NCBI RefSeq assembly: GCF_026151205.1
Contig: NC_087077.1
Coordinates: 4,590,001 to 4,650,000 of the forward strand
Length of the DNA stretch: 60,000 nucleotides
Reading direction: 5' to 3'
From: Bolinopsis microptera
Lineage: Eukaryota; Ctenophora; Tentaculata; Lobata; Bolinopsidae
The first letter of the stretch is position 1, and each line of letters opens with the position of its first letter. The notes below the pieces were generated by a model that was given only the letters and a program-made list of their open reading frames with translations, was not told the origin of the DNA and made no database searches. Shown here piece after piece: positions 1 through 59,999 of this stretch. The translations under genes and the position numbers were made by a program.

Positions 1-14
1 AATTTCTTGTTTCA

Positions 15-2504
15 TTGAATTTCTTGTTTCATTCTTGCTCTTCAAATCTTGAGAGTGCTAACAACTTTGCACAGTTCTTTAAATCAAAGGTCGACAACAT
101 ATACAACAACATTTATTTAGAACAACAATCCCAAGATTCTCCTAACTCAGATGAATTTGTTCCTCTTTCTAATAGCCCAAAGATAGTACAATTCCGTCAT
201 GTGTCTGATGAAGAACTAGTAAGCATCATAAAGAATATGTCTAACAAATTCTGTGATCTTGACCCCATACCTACAAAGATTCTCATCAAGTGTCTCCCAG
301 AACTCCTTCCTCTGATCTCATTTATAGTCAATGAATCATTAGTTAAAGGTGAGTTTCCTATAAAACTTAAGGAGGCTCTCATTCGTCCAAGTTTGAAGAA
401 ACGTGGCCTTGACGGTGAATCTCTATCTAACTATAGGCCTATTAGCAATCTCTCATTCTTGTCAAAATTCATTGAGAAGTGTGTATCTATACAGCTCACC
501 AGTTATCTTGAGGATAACAACTTGCTTTCTAAAGTTCAGTCCGGCTATAGGAAGTTTCATAGCTGTGAAACTGCAACAACCAGAATCCATAACGACATCT
601 TGATAACTATTGACAAGAAAACTAAAGTTGTTCTTTTACTTCTAGATTTGAGTGCTGCCTTTGATACTGTCAATCACCCAAGATTAATCAAGAAGCTAAG
701 ATCTGCTTATGGCATTACAGGCATTGCTCTTACATGGATCAGGTCTTACTTGGCTAACCGTTCATTTTGTGTCAAAGTCAAGGATTCGTCTTCCTCAGCA
801 ACTGTTCTTGAGATAGGTGTGCCACAAGGTTCAATCCTTGGCCCCCTGCTATTCATATTGTACACCAAAGATCTTGAGAACATTGCAAGTATGCATGGGT
901 GCTGTATTCATTTGTATGCTGATGACACCCAGCTGTATTTCACTCTTGATTCTGATGACCCATCAAAGCTAGAGCACAATATGGAACACTGTATGTCTGA
1001 TATCAAGAAATGGATGACAAACAATTTCCTTCAACTGAATTCTTCTAAGACTGAAGTCATCGTTATATCCTCTAAATTTGACTCAACAAATATTCCAGCC
1101 TCTCTACAGATTGTTAAGGATCAAGAGCCACATGTTGTTAGTGGAACTGTGAAGAGTCTTGGGCTGTATTTGGACAGTTATCTTTCAATGAGTGATCAGA
1201 TTACGTCAGTGGTTCAAGCATGTAATATTCAGATCAGAAATTTGTGGTTTATAGCATCAAAACTGTCTTTTAACCTTAAGATTCAGCTTGTTCATGCTCT
1301 AGTACTCTCTAGAATTGATTATTGCAATAGCGTATATTTTGGACTGAGCTCTTATGATTTAAGTCGTTTACAGAAGGTGCAAAATTCTGCTGTAAGATTT
1401 ATTTTCGGGAGAGGAAGAAAGGCACACACTACTCCACTTCTTAAGAAAGCTCATTTTCTACCAGTTAGATTTAGAATAGATTTTAAGATTGCCCTACTTG
1501 CCTACAAGTGTTTAAGGGGGCCGGGGGGGTCTTCATCAAAATTCTCTCGAAATCGAGTTTACAGTTGTTTCTGATAGAGGGGAGTGATATCTATCAGCTG
1601 CTTTTAGTCCCATGGAAAAATATTGTTCCTAGCCGAAATTATCGCCGGTCAAAGGTCAGCGCTTATGTGTAATTGTATTGCGCAAGCAATTTTCAATCGC
1701 GCGCTCTGAAAATCGAGTCTAAAAATCTATCTTCTCCTACATTTTTTGAGCAATCACCCTCAAACTTTCAGGATATGTTTTTAGGATCAGTTAGAAGAGA
1801 TCTCTAGAGCCAGAATTTGGAGATAGGCCTTTAAAGATTTTTAATTCGATTTTGAAAATCTTGGACCTCTAAAAATCAAGGTCCAAGATTTTCAAAATCG
1901 AATTAAAAATCTTTAAAGGCCTATCTCAAAATTCTGGCTCTAGAGTTCTCTTCTAACTGATCCTAAGAACATATCCTGAAAGTTTGAGGGTGATTGCTCA
2001 AAAAATGTAGGAGAAGATAGATTTTTAGACTCGATTTTCAGAACGCGCGATTGAAAATTGCTCGCGCAATACAATTACTCATAAGCGCTGACCTTTGACC
2101 GGCGATAATTTCGGCTAGGAACACTATTTTTCCATGGGACTAAAAGCATCTGATAGATATCACTCCCCTCTATCAGAAACAAATATAAACTCGATTTCGA
2201 GAGAATTTTGATGAAGACCCCCCCCCCCCCCCCCCCCCCGGCCCCCTTAAATAATATAGCTCCTCCTTACTTAAAAGAGTTGATATCTCCTAGGCAGCAA
2301 AGTTTTAAAAATGTACGTCTTGATAATGATTATTTTTACCTTAGTTTTCCGCCCTCTCCTAACTATGTAAACACAGAGAAAGCTTTTAGTCACTGTGCAG
2401 TTAAAGTATTTAATTCCTTGCCATACGACATAAGATCAGCTGAGTCAGTTACATCTTTCAAGACCAAACTTAAAACATACTTCTTTTCTCTAGCATTTGA
2501 TTGA
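15..2504 (+). pseudogene. LINE reverse transcriptase, split by an insertion
   Basis: The protein has the standard RT blocks: NYRPISNLSFLSKFIEK (about residues 140-156), the block A motif LLLLDLSAAFDTVNHPRL with a catalytic Asp, the VPQGSILGPLLFILY block, and the YADDTQLYF active site. The C-terminal LINE domain begins as AYKCL at 1498-1513 and is cut there. It continues as NNIAPPYLKELISPR after 2250 and ends at 2504. The frame would be uninterrupted without the insert, so the copy was probably intact in this part when it was hit. The first ATG shown is simply the first one in the window, because the frame enters from upstream. No endonuclease domain is visible. Confidence 0.9.
1516..2246. mobile_element. 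TTAA-flanked palindromic MITE, copy 1 (piggyBac-type target)
   Basis: A 731-bp near-perfect inverted repeat centred near 1880. TTAA lies immediately outside each end, at 1512-1515 and 2247-2250. The termini are GGGGGCCGGGGGG and its complement; the right end carries a run of 22 C (2218-2239). No coding capacity. TTAA duplication is the hallmark of piggyBac-superfamily transposition, so this is probably a non-autonomous piggyBac-like element or a foldback using the same transposase. Confidence 0.85.
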
Positions 2505-7149: not shown

Positions 7150-46695
<39,546 letters not shown>

Positions 46696-47116: not shown

Positions 47117-49286
47117 TCATTCGCTCTTTGCATTGGACGAATTATTTTCGTACAATCTATTGATCTTATTGTCATTTCTATTAAGTGACCAGGTGCCCCT
47201 ATTCTCGTACTGCTTGGTAAAGGCACCCACAATGATGGTCAGGGGCAGAGCTAGGAATACCATGCCGATGTAGAAGAATACGGTGGAGAAGGCTTTACCA
47301 ATGAAGGTGACAGGAACTATGTCGCCATACCCGACTGTGCTCATGGTAACTACAGCCCACCACATCGCATCAACTCCTGAGAGAAAGGGGTTTTGTGTGG
47401 CATTGTTGGTTTATTAATTTATTGTTTCTTTATAAGTGTAATAATAGATAAAAACATACCGCAAAAAATATATTCAAAAAATATTATGTCACGCTAGAAT
47501 GGCTTGAATATATTTTGTGCGGTATGTTTTTAGTGCCGACGCGTGTTATAGATGAATTTATTTATATTTACTTTTTTATTTATTCATTATAAAAAATATA
47601 TTGGTAAATTATGCAGCTGCAAGCACTCTTTGATTAGATTACAACTAATAAAGTGATACCAACTTGTTACAACATCAAAACAGATCATATACTGATATAG
47701 TAAAATAAATCCAATTGTAGAATGTAGTTCAAATAGAATATCTTACCGCTCGTAATCTTATCGTTAGCCTCATTCTCGCAGTAGTAAAACACAGACCCTG
47801 CCACTGTGATACACATGGCCCACACTATTATCAACAAAGAGAGCTCCCCTAGCGAGTGTGACATCACGTACGCAATCAGCAACAACCTCTTATTCTTCTT
47901 GATCAACTTTAAAACACGTACCACCCTCGCCATCCTCAGCACTTTCAGTCCTTTGAACCTCGACGCATCAACAAACAGCTCAAAGTAGTATGGTGCTACT
48001 GTTACGATATCCAGCCAAGTAGCGGGACTCCGAGCAAAGACCCACCTCTCGTCAGATACTGTGAACCTTATCAGCACATCAAAACTAAAGAAGAAGACAG
48101 TCACAGTCTCCACAGCAAAAGCGATGTTATACTCGAGAGACCATTTCACGGATACCTTCCTCTTTACTTCAGGGTTAGTCTCCGTTACCATGGCTACCAC
48201 AGACAGGGCTATAAAGAAGATATCCAGCCAGCCCCAGATCTTGCCAGGTATAGAGCTACTTGGGTCTTGCAGTGCTTTGTTCACAGCTCTAACAGCACGG
48301 CTGAATTTGTTTATATTAGGAATTACAGTAATTTATGAATTGCGGAAGGCCGAACGTGGGTTTTTGATATTGTAGTGTTTATAGGGAGCATCACGGCTCC
48401 CGACAATTTAATTTTACAGTCAGGAAAAGTTTACAGTCTGGAAAACTGGCAAACATCATTTAGACGCCGCGCTCTTATACAACTGCATACCTGAACTTAG
48501 AACCAGTTCTTTTTGGCTTTATAATGAAATCACTATCACTATCATTATCATCTGGGTGCTGAAAGACGCTCATCATCCTATAGAAGTTCACCTCTTCAAG
48601 ATACATATCTTCTGGAACCCCCTGGGGAGGGTACAGTTTCCCGAACAGATAGAAGTCGAATATTGACTCAAACGTGTCTCGGTTTCGGTCGAAGAAGTAT
48701 TCTTTGTGGACGGGGTCGTAAAACTTCTTTATATCAGCCGAACCTAAAAGTTAATATTTTGCTTAATAAAGTTATTGAATATTACTGGATATTTTCTGAT
48801 GACAGTTGGTACTATCTTTCTGTCACAGTGTTGAAGGTTTTTACTTTTGTATCAAGTCTCCAGTACGTAGTACGTAATAATATGTTTGCCAAGTTTGATA
48901 ATGAATGCTCAAAAATGTAGAAGGTGATAGATTCCATACTAAGTATCCTAAATATGCATTCAAGCGTCCATTCGAATCAAAGGAATTAATTGCGGTGACT
49001 CTGTAATTAAAGACCACTTTTATATACGATTATTAAAAGTACAAAATACCTAGTAGAGTCGTCGGATATTTCTTCAACTTCTTAGAATCTATTAGGAACT
49101 TTCTGCCCGACACATTTATAGTTATCAAGACTGGAGCAGGTTTGGGAGCAGGTAAAACTTGACCTTTGGTAGCCAGTTCGTTGGAGGATGAGCGAGCTAC
49201 CAGCTCACTTTTTTCGCTGGAGCTAGGCAGGGACAGGGCCCGGAGCGGAGCAGTCAGAACTCTCGACTTTTTGGATGAAAAAAAAT
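47117..49286 (-). CDS. Voltage-gated potassium channel (Kv), divergent, 4 exons seen
   Basis: Exons 49050-49286, 48491-48743, 47747-48300 and 47117-47376 join in phase. The T1 tetramerisation domain spans the first two (VLITINVSGRKFLIDSKKL, YPTTLLG, YFFDRNRDTFESIFDFYL). S1-S5 are in the third exon; S4 reads GLKVLRMARVVRVLKLIKKN with basic residues every third position. The last exon has the pore TMSTVGYGDIVP and S6. S6 carries ALPLTIIVGAF where Kv channels usually have a PVP-type bend. The C-terminus is short (about 25 residues after S6). The start is uncertain: the first exon has an acceptor-like AG at 49287, but its frame also extends without a stop to an ATG at 49368. It lies upstream of DNAI2 in the same orientation, with about 420 bp between. 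Confidence 0.93.
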
Positions 49287-49998
49287 CTGAAAATTTAACA
49301 CAAACATTAGAATTTTTCTGAGAAATGAGAATTACACTAGTCGACAATTTCTTGTTTTCGTCGAACAATTATTTTTGCTGCCTTTTGTGGATTTGGGATT
49401 ACCAGGCTAGTTTCAAACGCAGAGTTCAGGTAAAGTTCACAAAGTTAGAGCTCACTACCTCGCAGTTGACGTTTTGGAATATTATAAAACATGCTGGCGC
49501 CAAAGATGTAAAAGTTAGCAATTTTAGATAATAACGTCGGAGATGGAATTTTAGAACCCCAGTGTAGACTGTCTAGAGATAAACGACAACTAGGCCGATT
49601 AAAAGATAATTTTATACAGCTACGGCCCTTCATAATTATGATTATGTGCAATTTGCTGAATATTATTATTATATACATATTACATAATATATCATTATCA
49701 TCATAATTATCATCATAATATATAATATCATTCCACAGATTCCACAGAACTTGGCAATCCCGTGCCCTACCTATATCGACATACAATGTTTTACATCGAC
49801 ACCTCTATTATATTAATTCGACTTATATCGAGTACGATTCGACATAAGTTGAGAGTAGCACACTGAGTAATTCGACAAACTATTATCAATCTGAGCAAGT
49901 ACCACGTGAGTACTTAATACTTATCGTGGATTATGTAGCACACCTTAAGCTTGATAAGACTCTATTACCTGATCTCATGATCTGAGCTGAAGAGGACC

Positions 49999-53825: not shown

Positions 53826-53970
53826 TGGGGGGGGGGGGGGGGGGAGGGGGGGCCGGGGGCTGCAGCTGACCATATTAAAGTATATTAAAATGTAGGTTTT
53901 TTCCCGATTTAGGGCCGGGGATATATTTTAATATACTGTAATATAGTCAGCCCCCCCCCCCCCCCCTCCC
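53826..53970. repeat. Foldback with G-run and C-run arms
   Basis: An 18-base G run (53827-53844) followed by GCTGACCATATTAAAGTATA pairs with TAATATACTGTAATATAGTC followed by a 16-base C run (53951-53966). The loop contains CCCGATTTAGGGCCGGGG. Likely a short MITE. Confidence 0.8.
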
Positions 53971-54989: not shown

Positions 54990-57900
54990 TTAATAAGTGT
55001 ACAGGATTGAAACAATCTCAGAACACCATACCGCATAAGTAGGTTCCGCAGGTTCTACTGGTCCGACACTTTTCCTCCTCTCTGACGGATACCCTAGAGT
55101 CCTCCTCTTTTCCTCCTTCTCTTCCTTCACTTTTCTGTAATGGTCCTGGTCCAACTCAGCGTAGGCTGGCTCTTCATCTTCCTGGTAAAATCAATCGTAT
55201 AATAATTATAATGTACGTTTTATCTTCAGAATAAGATTAAGTCATGGTCGGAAAAATCTTCAAATGGTTCAACTTGGAATGAATCCTGACAAAATCTCAA
55301 GAGCAGAAGAGCAGTAATCAGGATGCTGGTCGGTTCATAAAGAGATACGTATCCCCCTCGAACTCACAATAGCGGAGGGGTTTGAAAAGATCATTATTCC
55401 TCCTCCGTTGTTACTCACAATTTGTATATCCGCCAGTGTCTTGATGTCGCTGTCTATATTGTCCAGGTGTTGGTCGATGGTAGAATTCTTTTGTTTAGAT
55501 TTTTGTGTGCGCTTCCTGAAGCTTTGTAGGTTCCTATTGTCGTAGAGATTCTGAGGAAATTTATAGCATGTTTTCAAGACTTATATAATGTGTACAAGGC
55601 CGTTTAAATTGATCGTCAACTTCTATTCTAAATTCCTCATATTATATGAACTATCGTTATCTGTAGCAACTGATTACACGAAAGTCTGGAAAAATGGCGA
55701 TAAACCGTTCAACCACATACCACTCTCTTTATCTGGTTGTTTAGGCGCAAGTCAAGCAGTCTGCCATTATATTATGAGCTCAAATGGGTTATTATTTAAT
55801 AGGATTATAAGAGTCGCGACAAACATATTCAGACTAGACATGTAGGTTTGTTGTACCAACTAACGATCGTACTCGATGAATAAAAGATATAGCGATTTTG
55901 TATAAATTGTATCACGATTGTACTTGATGAACTATTTGAAAAATTCAAATCGAGGTATTTTTCAGTCATACTTTTAAATTGTATTGTCATGTGGAATGCT
56001 CACACACGCCAGTCATTGTAAAATTTCCCTAAACCTTGAGATTGCTATTTTAACGAAGGAGCAGATAACTCAATAAAGATTCACTTACATTTTCCTCTTC
56101 AGTCCCAGAATCCTCGTCAATCTTTTTAGAGGTTTCTAAATCCAGATCGTCTGCACTTTTATTGACAGTAACAGTACCTCGACGCTCCAAACCTCTTGGC
56201 TCAACATGACGAGATTCTACACTAACAGCTTTCTTGGCAGCACCCTTCATACAGACACAGTAATAGAGTACAGCTAGTAGAATCAGTAATAGTAATACTC
56301 CTCCTATTACACCCCCCACTATTGCACCTGTATTGGAACCACTTTTGTCGTCACCTGAATTAATGGTTAATTTAAAATTATATTTAAGATGTCTTCTAAT
56401 TTGTTTGCTACCTCAATTTTATTGATTAGAAGCAATGAGAAGGCTGGATGCTTAAAAATAATTACAGCTGTAGTTTTCCATTAAATTCACATTATTGTGA
56501 TGAAAACACATCTAGAAAGTTCGTTACCGGTGTTTTCCTGATAATTAGGATCATCTATACAGCTGCTGAGACTCAGTGTCTTATCACTGCTCGTTTCTCC
56601 TTCAGGACATTTTGTACAGTCATCATTAACTCCGTAGTAACCAGCTTTACAGTTACTGGTAGCTGAGAATTTTAGATTGCGTCAAGTCATCCATCTTAAA
56701 GTTAAAGTTAAAGTTAACTCTAAAGTTTACATCTTAGTTAATACGATTTCCAAGGATAAATTGTCTGTGGGTCCATATTAATTATTATTATTAAGTAAAT
56801 GTTGATACCGTGCTAGATGTTTATGTCGTGCCGTAAGTTATCGAAAAAACATGTTCCAAGTATACAATTATTGTTCACAAACCTTTGACACAATCAGATA
56901 TGTCATTTGATTTAGGAGGTGATGTCTCATCTACTCCGCAAGCTTTACACTGCGTTCCTACACCATACTCTCCTTCCTTACAAGCCACTCCCACTGAAAC
57001 ACAAGAAAACGTTTTAAGATTCGCTAGAAATGGAGAAACAAATTTTACAAATCATTTTCGGACGAGTTTGTGCAGGATTTCTTCCTAGAATAATATATTA
57101 AAAGGTACTAAGATTTTACGTTTAAGACGATTACATACCTTTGTAAACGTTGTAAGTTCTGACAGTCTTGTTGAACCCGCCGGTGTTATCAATGAAATAG
57201 AATGCAAACTGGTCCCCAGGAATCTGCTTATTAAACTGAACCTTGAACGTTACTCTAGGAGGTACCTAGGATTATAGCACATCTGTTAGGATTTATAAGA
57301 TAAAAAGTTGAGGTGATTTTATAGTAGAGATAAGCATAACTCAGTTCCATGAGATGATAATGATTCCCGGTGTAGGTGTGGTATCATGCTATGATAAATT
57401 TAATGATATGTGACATTCTTAGAATCAAAGGTTTGAAACCTTATACCTTATACAGGGATTCCTTCGGGAGCATGTAAGATTATATCCAAAGTTTGTTCGC
57501 CAATGGGGTGTGTCTGGGTGTCAAAGATCTTCAAGGTGGGTGCTACTTGTGATGAACTCTAGAAGGATGGGGTGGTAATACTCGGTCTGGCCGTCTGGAA
57601 GCCCATAGAATTCCAGTTCAGAAACCGAGTAAGGAGGTGCGGCTACTGATGAGAAGCCTCCTTAAAGTTTATTTGGGTTAGAAACGACATCTGGGTCCCT
57701 ACCCTCGCACAAGATTATTCTCAATTTTCTTGTTGTGTTCCACAACTACACTTGAGTCCCAGGCTAGCATAGAAGGTGAGATTAACGGTGCACAACTGAA
57801 AGTCCCAGTTGTGCGCTATTAATCCCACCTGCTGTTCTACAATAATTATTTTTATCGTCTTGTAGCAATAAACTTATGACTTTATGCAATATAGCTGTAG

Positions 57901-59999
57901 GTCACGAAAGCACCGCGCCGGTGGCTGAAAGTGAGAAATCTTGGAATGAGGTTCTAAAAATAGCCTCTGAAACTCTGGATCGAACTAATTATTGCTTAGG
58001 CACGAATCCCATCGGCCCGGCGAAATTGGTTTACTGTTTTGGCGATTATGAATAACTTTGTTTAACGCAGTAATGAGTGCAGATCTGCAGTTTTAGCTCC
58101 TTGAATAACATAGTGTTATGAAAAGCAAAAATCACGTGACGTTAATATATCTCGTGACCATAGCAGCTGCGCTCTAGCGTTGGATCTCTAATTTTACCAC
58201 TCTTTCATTCTTAACTCGTCTTTATCCTAACACTTAGCCTCAATTATATATAATATAAATTATAAGGGCACGTGCAAGGCCAAGGAGTATATTTATTTTG
58301 GTCGATACTCGTTATAGCTATGCAGCATCAACTCTCAGACTCTCAGACTCGTGCGCAAATTTTTAATTAGTCACTCAGAAATCATCTCCCGATGCGATTA
58401 ATATTAAATCTACCTTCTTTGATAAAATTCTAACTACCTGTAGGTAAAATAGTATATCATGACAGTGTACTCGGATACGGCTGATACTGTGTATGGATCA
58501 GTTTGTGCTTGTGGAGTAATCCTGTCCCTTTTTCTCAACCCCTTGTTATTAATACAACATCTAAAGAAGAAACGAAGTTTTATCAACACACTTTTTATCC
58601 ACCTCTGTTTTGCTGATTTTGCTACAGGTTTAGCAGGTTAGTAGTTGCTCAACAAATTTTCCTTCGCCAACTAATAACAATCGTTAGACTTCACCAATCA
58701 CCATCTGCACACAAACATCAAAACATTTTAATTCCCCGCAGGAATCGTACCCAGCTACAACTTCCTTCTTGACCAATACGACCACAAACTTTACCCAGCC
58801 ACACCATGGACGAAAACAACTTCAATATTCAACACCATCTTCATCTTGGACTCAATGATCGTAACTACACTGCTAGCTGTTACTAGGTACATTAGTATCA
58901 TGAGTCCTTTCTACACGGTTAGACAGATTTACGTTTTTCTGTACCATGTCCTAGAAATCTCATGGATCTTTGCAGCATGCCTTTACGAAAACAGACCCAA
59001 GGTAAGAATTCTGAATATGTTCATATTGTATGAAATTGAAATAGCAGATTATAATCATGATTTCATGGACTGAATTTCTGGTTTATCATATCTTCACAGT
59101 TCACACATTATGATAATATAATACATAATTACAATATCCAGCAGGAAAATCTGTACTGGATGCCTGTACCTCAAGGAACCTCAATCATTAATTCCCAAGT
59201 CAACTCTTCGACCTATAGCTACAACCCTTCAGAACTGTACAAGGGATTCAACATGAAATGGACATACTTTATCATTCCCATGATACTTCACTGCATCGTG
59301 GTGATCACAGTTTCCACACTGACGATCATTGCTCTGGTGAAGAGCAGCATGGCTGAGGTCAGCTCGCAGTCAGCGCAGCGGTGCATCAAGAGTAGTAAGA
59401 AGATTCTCCTTCTGAATCTTGGAGTTATCATACAGGCCCTTTCTTATCTAAGTGGTGTTCTCACTACCTTCGCTGGTGATTTTCATGAGTATCACGTGAC
59501 TGTCAATGCTGTAGTTCTGCCTATTTGGCTTTCTTGCTACAATCCTATTGTCCTTCTTGTGGGTGAAAACAAGGACATGATTCTACAAAGAATTCGGCCG
59601 ATCTTTTTTAACAGTAATTAACTCTTTGCTCTCGGATCTAGGTTAATGTTATTTAAGTTATACTGATAAAAAAAAGAAATTTACACCACACACTGCACAT
59701 TTAAAGGCATCATAATTATTTATTTACAATAATTTATATCGACTTACAGCAGTGTATTCCTCAGATCTGGTTAGGGTGAACAACTCATCTCCTTCATCAA
59801 TATTGTTGTTGTTGTCATCCACATCATTATTTGTATCGCCATCTTTCTCGGTGTCATTATCGTTTTCATCATCTGTACCCTGGTCCTCCTTCTTGTCGTA
59901 GTGTGTAATGATTGTGACGTCAGCTAAGGGCCAGCCGGTTACTTGAAAAGAGAAGCTGGCATCTTGAGTGTCGGAGAGATAGTAGTTTTGCTCTTCCAC
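54990..59999 (-). CDS. Membrane receptor: cysteine-free Ig-like domain, ephrin-receptor-like modules, TM, Tyr tail (5' partial)
   Basis: Exons 59748-59999 (frame runs out of the window), 57139-57265, 56883-56993, 56528-56662, 56089-56354, 55419-55550 and 54990-55181 join in phase. The Ig-like fold reads FSFQVTGWPLADVTI (B-C strands; Phe and Ile sit where Cys and Trp belong), then an Asp/Asn-rich insert, then GDQFAFYFIDNTGGFNKTV (F-G strands, again no Cys). An intron splits the domain. Two Cys modules follow: CKEGEYGVGTQCKAC, and CKAGYYGVNDDCTKC. The TM segment is AIVGGVIGGVLLLLILLAVL. The cytoplasmic part holds SKKIDEDSG, NLYDN, PAYAELDQDHYRKV and EPTYAVW. The 3' end is uncertain: the frame stops at 54990, but GTATGG at 55031 could be a donor. 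The layout resembles cnidarian allorecognition-type receptors, but the assignment is inference. Confidence 0.82.
57454..57645 (-). pseudogene. Possible decayed Ig-type exon inside the receptor gene
   Basis: Between an AG at 57646 and a GT at 57453, the minus strand reads APPYSVSELEFYGLPDGQTE in one frame. In the next frame it reads APTLKIFDTQTHPIGEQTL. The second part loosely resembles the neighbouring exon PPRVTFKVQFNKQIPGDQF. A one-base shift separates the parts. It may be a dead duplicate exon; similarity was judged by eye only. Confidence 0.35.
58459..59621 (+). CDS. Class A-like seven-transmembrane receptor, 3 exons
   Basis: Exons 58459-58636, 58742-59001 and 59145-59621 join in phase to 304 aa. 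TM1 (VCACGVILSLFLNPLLLI) and TM2 (FINTLFIHLCFADFATGL) are in exon 1. TM3 ends LLAVTRYISIMSPF, with TRY for DRY. TM5-TM7 are in exon 3 (TYFIIPMILHCIVVITVSTL, then KKILLLNLGVIIQALSYL). TM7 reads VVLPIWLSCYNPIVLLV, keeping an NP pair but not the full NPxxY. The extracellular loop before TM5 has glycosylation-type NSS. The tail is short. The gene sits antisense within the 2.5-kb intron of the Ig-like receptor gene. Ligand unknown. The acceptor of exon 3 could be three bases earlier (CAGCAG). Confidence 0.85.

Follow-up and report, generated by a model that had tools for sequence, protein, structure and literature searches.

A candidate family of immune-type recognition receptors in a ctenophore, with a predicted galectin-like head, two immunoglobulin domains and tyrosine-motif tails

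A 60,000-nucleotide stretch of the genome of the ctenophore Bolinopsis microptera (the window, C6:4590001-4650000 of assembly G000) carries on its minus strand a receptor gene that belongs to a family of 31 loci. Because a galectin-like head, two immunoglobulin (Ig) domains, Cys-rich modules and a tail with tyrosine motifs are combined in them, the encoded proteins have the look of immune-type recognition receptors. At about even confidence, we propose a ctenophore lectin-Ig family of putative receptors of this type with a phosphotyrosine switch, parallel to the Alr proteins of Hydractinia and the FcoR proteins of Botryllus and a member of neither group.

The family seemingly is undescribed so far. 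Literature on ctenophore Ig, galectin, immunoreceptor tyrosine-based inhibitory motif (ITIM) and allorecognition yielded no description of it, within a scope of titles and the beginnings of abstracts of open-licence papers, and the accessible part of the paper on the M. leidyi immune repertoire covers other domains in detail. Ctenophore immune receptors are poorly known, and the family, together with an SHP-like partner gene, offers a testable case for asking whether recognition through tyrosine motifs dates back to the origin of animals.

The receptor gene of the window

The gene was modelled with 13 exons, from the stop at window position 54990 to a start at about 62035 (C6:4652035), past the window end. 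Each of the 12 introns has GT-AG borders, and no stop interrupts the frame. Exon borders were chosen by eye and the exon joins are predicted. Homology to paralogues supports exons 1-8; for exons 9-13 the support comes from the Cys pattern, the transmembrane (TM) helix and motifs, and for exon 12 only from its open frame. In the 724-amino-acid protein, the N-domain covers residues 36-210, Ig1 residues 211-313 and Ig2 residues 314-446. Phase-1 introns flank exons 5+6 (Ig1), exons 7+8 (Ig2) and each of exons 9 and 10 (one Cys module each), and phase-1-bounded modules are the usual sign of exon shuffling. As modelled, the product would be a type I cell-surface receptor with signal peptide, galectin-fold head, Ig1, atypical Ig2, 4-Cys stalk, TM helix and tail.

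An earlier note on this DNA, made from the sequence alone, had described a receptor with one Ig fold at 54990-59999, a stretch that spans exons 7 (part) to 13; it saw the second of two Ig domains. The start at about 62035, the canonical Ig1, the N-domain with a galectin-like fold upstream and a plus-strand gene inside intron 7 are additions to it. The features within the stretch are as follows.

59748..60019 (window part to 60000), minus strand: exon 7, first half of Ig2 with the B and C strands, splice donor gtaagtcg
59784..59897, minus strand: Asp/Asn-rich insert of 38 residues between the C strand and the remaining Ig2, from the alignment to 16 paralogues
57139..57265, minus strand: exon 8, second half of Ig2, in which Phe replaces the Cys of the F strand (AFYF), from the gene model and profile alignments
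56883..56993, minus strand: exon 9, first ephrin-receptor-like 4-Cys module, phase 1-1, from the Cys pattern
56528..56662, minus strand: exon 10, second 4-Cys module, phase 1-1, from the Cys pattern
56089..56354, minus strand: exon 11, stalk, TM helix and juxtamembrane tail, from the gene model and hydropathy
56266..56328, minus strand: TM helix GAIVGGVIGGVLLLLILLAVL, at the hydropathy maximum
55419..55550, minus strand: exon 12, cytoplasmic tail, phase 0 at both ends, from the gene model alone and skippable in frame because of these phases
54990..55181, minus strand: exon 13, tail end with EDEEPAYAEL, DHYRKV, PTYAV and stop, from the gene model

A canonical and an atypical Ig domain

Ig1 of the window gene is canonical: it retains the Cys-Trp-Cys pattern and matches the Pfam I-set model with 26.4 bits alone and 24.2 bits within the whole protein (cut-off 23.7). 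In Ig2, exon 7 codes FSFQVTGWPLADVTII, with Phe at the B-strand Cys position and, 12 residues further on (the distance from B-strand Cys to Trp in Ig1), Ile at the core Trp position, while exon 8 codes GDQFAFYFIDN, with Phe at the F-strand Cys position. The segment of 133 residues holds no Cys and a single Trp, has neither the canonical B-F disulfide nor the core Trp, and gives no Pfam Ig match. The strand patterns B-C and F-G with Phe and Ile at these positions, and the long Asp/Asn-rich insert between them, had been reported from this sequence and are both present; the insert is mostly without counterpart in the alignment with 16 paralogues. These elements go beyond chance, since the segment matches the Ig2 profile of the same 16 paralogues (hhalign E 3.4e-8; hidden Markov model (HMM) E 2.2e-6).

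The Ig2 profile matched 28 rows, 27 of them other than the window gene, although L051_9288 and L052_488 are one gene, and 16 of the scored rows had also served to build the profiles. A Cys in the C strand, two residues past the usual Trp position, is found in 27/27 other rows and an F-strand Cys in 25/27, the remaining two being cut before that point; the B-strand Cys place is taken by Trp in 25/27, with a gap in the other two. From these columns, the family Ig2 would use two Cys in the adjoining strands C and F. The arrangement resembles CD4 domain 2, in which the disulfide joins strands C and F within one sheet rather than strands B and F; the window gene departs from it, being the only matched row with neither the C- nor the F-strand Cys. 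The HMM alignment placed a Glu and a Gln of the insert in the C-strand columns, unlike MAFFT and hhalign, and none of the three placed a Cys there.

We therefore reject a canonical Ig domain that merely lost residues, because in the family Ig2 the B-strand Cys place is already occupied by Trp and the C strand carries a Cys. The earlier statement that the domain has lost its Cys and Trp holds insofar as no Cys is left and Ile occupies the Trp place; simple loss does not describe it. Judged by its aligned sequence, the window gene has lost the second (C-F) Cys arrangement as well, and its Ig2 probably remains a beta-sandwich, with a hydrophobic core holding it in place of a disulfide.

The AlphaFold2 model of the ectodomain of paralogue L028, built with 16 own-family rows, reached a predicted local distance difference test score (pLDDT) of 78.5 and a predicted template modelling score of 0.73; over residues 191-385, where its beta strands are modelled with confidence, 17 of 20 blocks lie at pLDDT 84-94 and the other three at 77, 73 and 68. 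Residues 190-291 (Ig1) match the third domains of IL-1R and IL-18R, the best being IL-18R beta (Z 13.1, root-mean-square deviation (rmsd) 1.9, 99 residues). Residues 190-383 match tandem Ig pairs at Z 11.3-12.4 over about 156-190 aligned residues, with an rmsd of 7-18 because the two domains are fitted jointly. The search for an Ig fold that the earlier note had called for thus gave tandem-Ig matches for a paralogue ectodomain, whereas the Ig2 profile found no PDB chain below E 0.21. By title, the chains listed for it at E 0.21 or more are nearly all Ig (antibody light chains, CD4).

A dispersed family with many single-frame copies

The searched assembly has 264.65 Mb in 232 contigs, with C1-C13 of 15.2-26.2 Mb and C14 of 0.2 Mb. 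When the two Ig2 exons were queried one at a time, they retrieved no paralogue from this genome below E 0.1, so that the family becomes visible only with a whole-protein query: at E up to 0.1 the window protein had 87 matches, of which 13 fall on the window gene itself, and three paralogue ectodomains used as queries found further loci. By our count, partial, broken and distant copies included, the family has 31 loci (the window gene, L019-L038, a broken fragment in L029, L050, four in L051/L052, and L053-L056), dispersed over nine chromosomes, or ten with L038. At 19 of the 31, one uninterrupted frame spans the N-domain, Ig1 and Ig2, and the order of head and Ig domains, like family membership, is a direct observation.

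Read by eye, 13 loci show an intronless frame that opens with a signal-peptide-like start, includes a TM helix and ends at a stop. Such copies are not peculiar to the lectin-Ig family, because 22 of 29 matches to the ionotropic glutamate receptor model PF10613 in the same genome also lie in long open frames (431-989 residues). We infer that the single-frame copies derive by retroposition from an ancestor that had introns and resembled the window gene, with intron gain as the alternative.

Within the family, the window gene has a divergent sequence and carries introns. In a tree of 21 rows it has the longest end branch (2.27) and, lying outside every starred set, it has no supported place. This branch would also suit a gene in decay, on its way to becoming a pseudogene, as would the low-complexity insert and an Ig2 Cys pair lost where the other rows keep both. 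Decay fits poorly with 13 exons in open frame, GT-AG introns and no stop, with the Cys-Trp-Cys retained in Ig1, and with the presence of the Cys modules and a YxxΦ tail; we consider it very improbable.

Three loci were seen to be unusual. L053 (C6:4735823-4736413), a further family member, lies about 85 kb away from the window gene, and its head and Ig portions occupy two frames that overlap. L038 (334-1797; C4:7.245 Mb) has three TSP1 repeats instead of the galectin-like/Ig head, and its Cys module, TM helix and tail resemble those of L020 by eye, as in a head swap between families. L025 (1295-3007; C10:16.184 Mb) has a tail with 35 TYINMN units, which we take to be a YxxM/YxN-type, PI3K/Grb2-like motif; the locus may be broken, because its head frame is without Ig1 and separated by an in-frame TGA.

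A predicted galectin-like fold at the N-terminus

The N-domain of the window protein (residues 36-210) has no Pfam match and is recognised by the profile of the paralogue N-domains at E 3.2e-10. With the whole ectodomain model, the VIA-align rows were taken up by the Ig domains, and the N-domain was therefore predicted and searched alone. The model of the L020 N-domain (pLDDT 87.2) has galectin-8 as its best match (Z 13.8, rmsd 2.6, 139 residues). The 50 matches listed in each search all bear galectin titles, counting the Charcot-Leyden names of galectin-10; those of VIA-align have Z 12.2-13.8, and the best Foldseek match is galectin-9 (E 1.5e-5). The galectin fold of the window N-domain is thus predicted on a paralogue and extended to the window gene through membership in the same domain family. 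The likeness to galectins (PF00337) lies in this predicted fold and does not extend to a sequence match.

Cys modules, cytoplasmic tails and a possible SH2 partner

Both Cys modules of the window gene follow the pattern C-x2-G-x-Y-G-x4-C-x2-C-(x)n-C. Two ephrin-receptor-like modules had been claimed, and both are there; as a strict Pfam match the label is rejected, since 8 of 15 family Cys units match Ephrin_rec_like (PF07699) at E up to 1 (best 0.0022) and stay below the Pfam cut-off, and the two window exons scanned as frames give no PF07699 hit.

The TM helix and the tyrosines YAEL, YRKV and TYAV that had been read in the tail are likewise all present. TYAV is followed by Trp and is not a YxxΦ, so that EDEEPAYAEL and DHYRKV remain as two acidic-preceded YxxΦ motifs, beside a juxtamembrane YYCV. 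YAEL and YRKV are four residues apart (YAEL-x4-YRKV), below the 6-12 residues of immunoreceptor tyrosine-based activation motifs (ITAM).

Family tails are enriched in such motifs, by direct count. Against shuffled sequences, 15 tails hold 32 YxxΦ (the YYCV of the window gene included) vs 12.0 (standard deviation (sd) 3.1), 18 YAxΦ vs 0.7 (sd 0.8) and nine ITIM-like [ILVST]xYxx[ILV] vs 3.4 (sd 1.8; p 0.0065), counts that are not independent events because related copies share motifs. The count omitted six of the 20 loci found first (L022, L023, L025, L029, L032, L035) as well as the loci found later, and the tail of L019 ends at the locus edge (1476 residues read of an open frame of 1690). In the ten tails that hold YxxΦ, to which this test was confined, the seven positions before the Tyr carry 2.37 acidic residues (30 YxxΦ) vs 1.26 over all positions, a value reached by 0 of 5000 samples; acidic residues preceding the Tyr are hemITAM-like. 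The claimed ITAM/ITIM likeness applies to the family tails and less to the window gene, which has no ITIM-like pattern and a spacing below that of ITAMs.

A possible partner was observed directly in the genome.

C8:5779300-5784300, minus strand: SHP-like multi-exon gene (locus L065), SH2 and adjoining same-strand tyrosine-phosphatase exons found by HMM

A further SH2 upstream and tyrosine-phosphatase motifs are readable by eye, and the layout (SH2, SH2, phosphatase) is that of SHP-1/SHP-2. Two small contigs of the same assembly, C102 (25555-26089) and C107 (10984-11517), each show two closely adjoining SH2 domains with near-equal scores, which could be haplotype copies or foreign DNA.

Mechanistically, the galectin-like/Ig head would bind a ligand, either a glycan or a protein, on the surface of cells or microbes. 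Once the receptor clusters, a kinase of the Src/Syk type would phosphorylate YAEL and YRKV, and SH2 proteins, for example the SHP-like phosphatase of this genome, might then be recruited and set the threshold for an effector response.

Divergence between copies

Silent divergence is unequal between domains (p < 0.01) in seven of nine close pairs of paralogues, or five after correction for 27 tests, the nine pairs not all being independent (L020/L021/L023; L051a/b/c). In L031/L032 it amounts to 39/120 in the galectin-like domain vs 4/68 in Ig1 (p 1.1e-5), and in L051b/L051c the galectin-like domain differs from Ig2 with p 1.2e-5; L020/L021 and L036/L037 show no difference between domains. These domain-wise mosaics, as read from aligned copies, suggest gene conversion or recombination between members of the family.

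Weighing the receptor proposal

Several results speak against a lectin-Ig family of immune-type receptors, in addition to the silence of single Ig2 exons and the non-independence of the tails and pairs compared above. At the head, there is no match to PF00337 (Gal-bind_lectin) at E up to 1 in the proteins scanned, no family locus among the 51 genome matches to PF00337 at E up to 10, and no galectin among the four PDB rows of the N-domain profile at E up to 10. The alignment of the N-domain to galectins of the same genome is co-linear but not significant (E 0.047), and the galectin signature of His/Arg and Trp/Glu is mostly absent from it, so that galectin homology has no significant support by sequence. 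The fold models are of single-exon paralogues (the L028 ectodomain and the L020 N-domain), with Ig2 contained in the larger model, and the failure of the Ig2 profile to find a PDB chain below E 0.21 counts on the same side. The Ig1 and Ig2 profiles do not match each other significantly (E 0.24), and a duplication giving rise to both is thus unsupported by profile comparison. In the tails, the window gene has 0 matches to the ITIM-like pattern and no canonical ITAM, and five of the 15 members (L021, L026, L030, L036, L037) have short tails without YxxΦ. As for selection, overall omega is 0.25-0.55 in all nine pairs, and the values of 1.2-1.7 for Ig1 in three of them are not significant (p 0.38-0.52), leaving diversifying selection on Ig1 without significant support.

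An overall omega below 1 throughout is also what would be expected if these were cell adhesion or tissue-patterning receptors with no immune task, their YxxΦ serving AP2 endocytosis or Src-type adhesion signalling. YxxΦ is an AP2 endocytic motif too, the tandem Ig structure matches include Dscam, contactin, sidekick and KIT, and the TSP1 repeats of L038 indicate domain shuffling. Still, 31 loci with broken copies, domain-wise mosaics and variable tails are more like recognition repertoires, and the residues before YxxΦ are hemITAM-like in being acidic, a feature that is unnecessary for AP2. We regard an adhesion role as possible, though rather unlikely.

Comparison with known receptor systems

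Alr proteins are single-pass receptors whose Ig domains lie off the canonical Cys/Trp pattern, and they are not known to have a galectin-like head or a canonical Ig1. The ctenophore family shares with them a non-canonical Ig domain, tails with tyrosine (ITIM/ITAM-like) motifs and organisation as a multigene family, and differs in its galectin-like head, canonical Ig1, 4-Cys modules and dispersed genes, many of them single-frame. In the accessible text of the sources, Alr is a family of 41 members (PMC11999971), and candidate Alr genes and FcoRs carry ITIM/ITAM-type motifs, on which unrelated receptor systems converge (PMC12065747). The earlier note had left open whether the protein is a relative of Alr or a parallel invention; the latter fits better, because of the ctenophore origin and of a head and Ig1 that are not known from Alr.

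That these are true ctenophore allorecognition receptors, functional equals of Alr with polymorphism and a homophilic or allotypic ligand, would agree with the unusual Ig domain, the tyrosine tail and a multigene family with signs of conversion. The loci are spread over nine chromosomes (ten with L038) with no single complex, diversifying selection is not significant, and ctenophore individuals are reported to fuse readily, all of which makes such a role improbable.

The Botryllus FcoRs are, as far as the accessible text describes them, type I proteins with a V-type Ig, a sushi and two C2-type Ig domains and with tails bearing ITIM, hemITAM or Y-x-x-I/L/V, encoded at 53 loci in the fuhc locus (PMC12065747). 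Type I topology, Ig domains and tyrosine-motif tails are thus common to both, whereas the ctenophore proteins have a galectin-like domain, two Ig domains and 4-Cys modules, and their loci are dispersed. The nearest combination of Ig and lectin that we found is that of the snail galectin-related proteins (GREPs; VIgL group), given in the accessible part of the source as secreted proteins with signal peptide, Ig and galectin domain, with one member in B. glabrata; their galectin domain, detected by InterPro, is encoded at the gene's 3' end (PMC10875847). Unlike in a GREP, the ctenophore galectin fold is N-terminal, seen by predicted structure only, and part of a transmembrane receptor with a tyrosine tail.

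Tentatively, and as a rather speculative extension of the proposed lectin-Ig receptor family, the repertoire may have spread when an ancestor with introns, similar to the window gene, was retroposed, and it may diversify by domain-wise conversion; tyrosine-motif innate recognition with expanded receptor families would then either predate the split of the living phyla or have arisen in parallel in each.

Other features of the window

The GC content per 3-kb block of the window is 0.335-0.421. The gene nested in intron 7 of the receptor gene (57266-59747) lies on the opposite strand.

58459..59621, plus strand: nested gene with exons 58459-58636, 58742-59001 and 59100-59621, coding for a seven-transmembrane-like protein of 319 residues

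No Pfam model matches this protein at E up to 1, and other parts of the genome hold 22 partial matches to it (E up to 0.001). Ctenophores commonly carry genes nested within introns, and the accessible text of PMC8527503 gives 2357 of them for Hormiphora.

Further elements were recognised by eye. At 53826-53970, a long G-run and a C-run surround an inverted AT-rich repeat, resembling a small mobile element. Reverse-transcriptase-like open frames of the long interspersed nuclear element type lie at 3-1571 (plus strand) and 22702-23538 (minus strand) of the window, and another lies at 7177-9998 (minus strand) of locus L005. A voltage-gated potassium channel gene occupies 47688-49368 on the minus strand, and 40115-44087 on the plus strand holds a large gene whose Cys repeats are LDL-receptor-A-like and which has a seven-transmembrane end.

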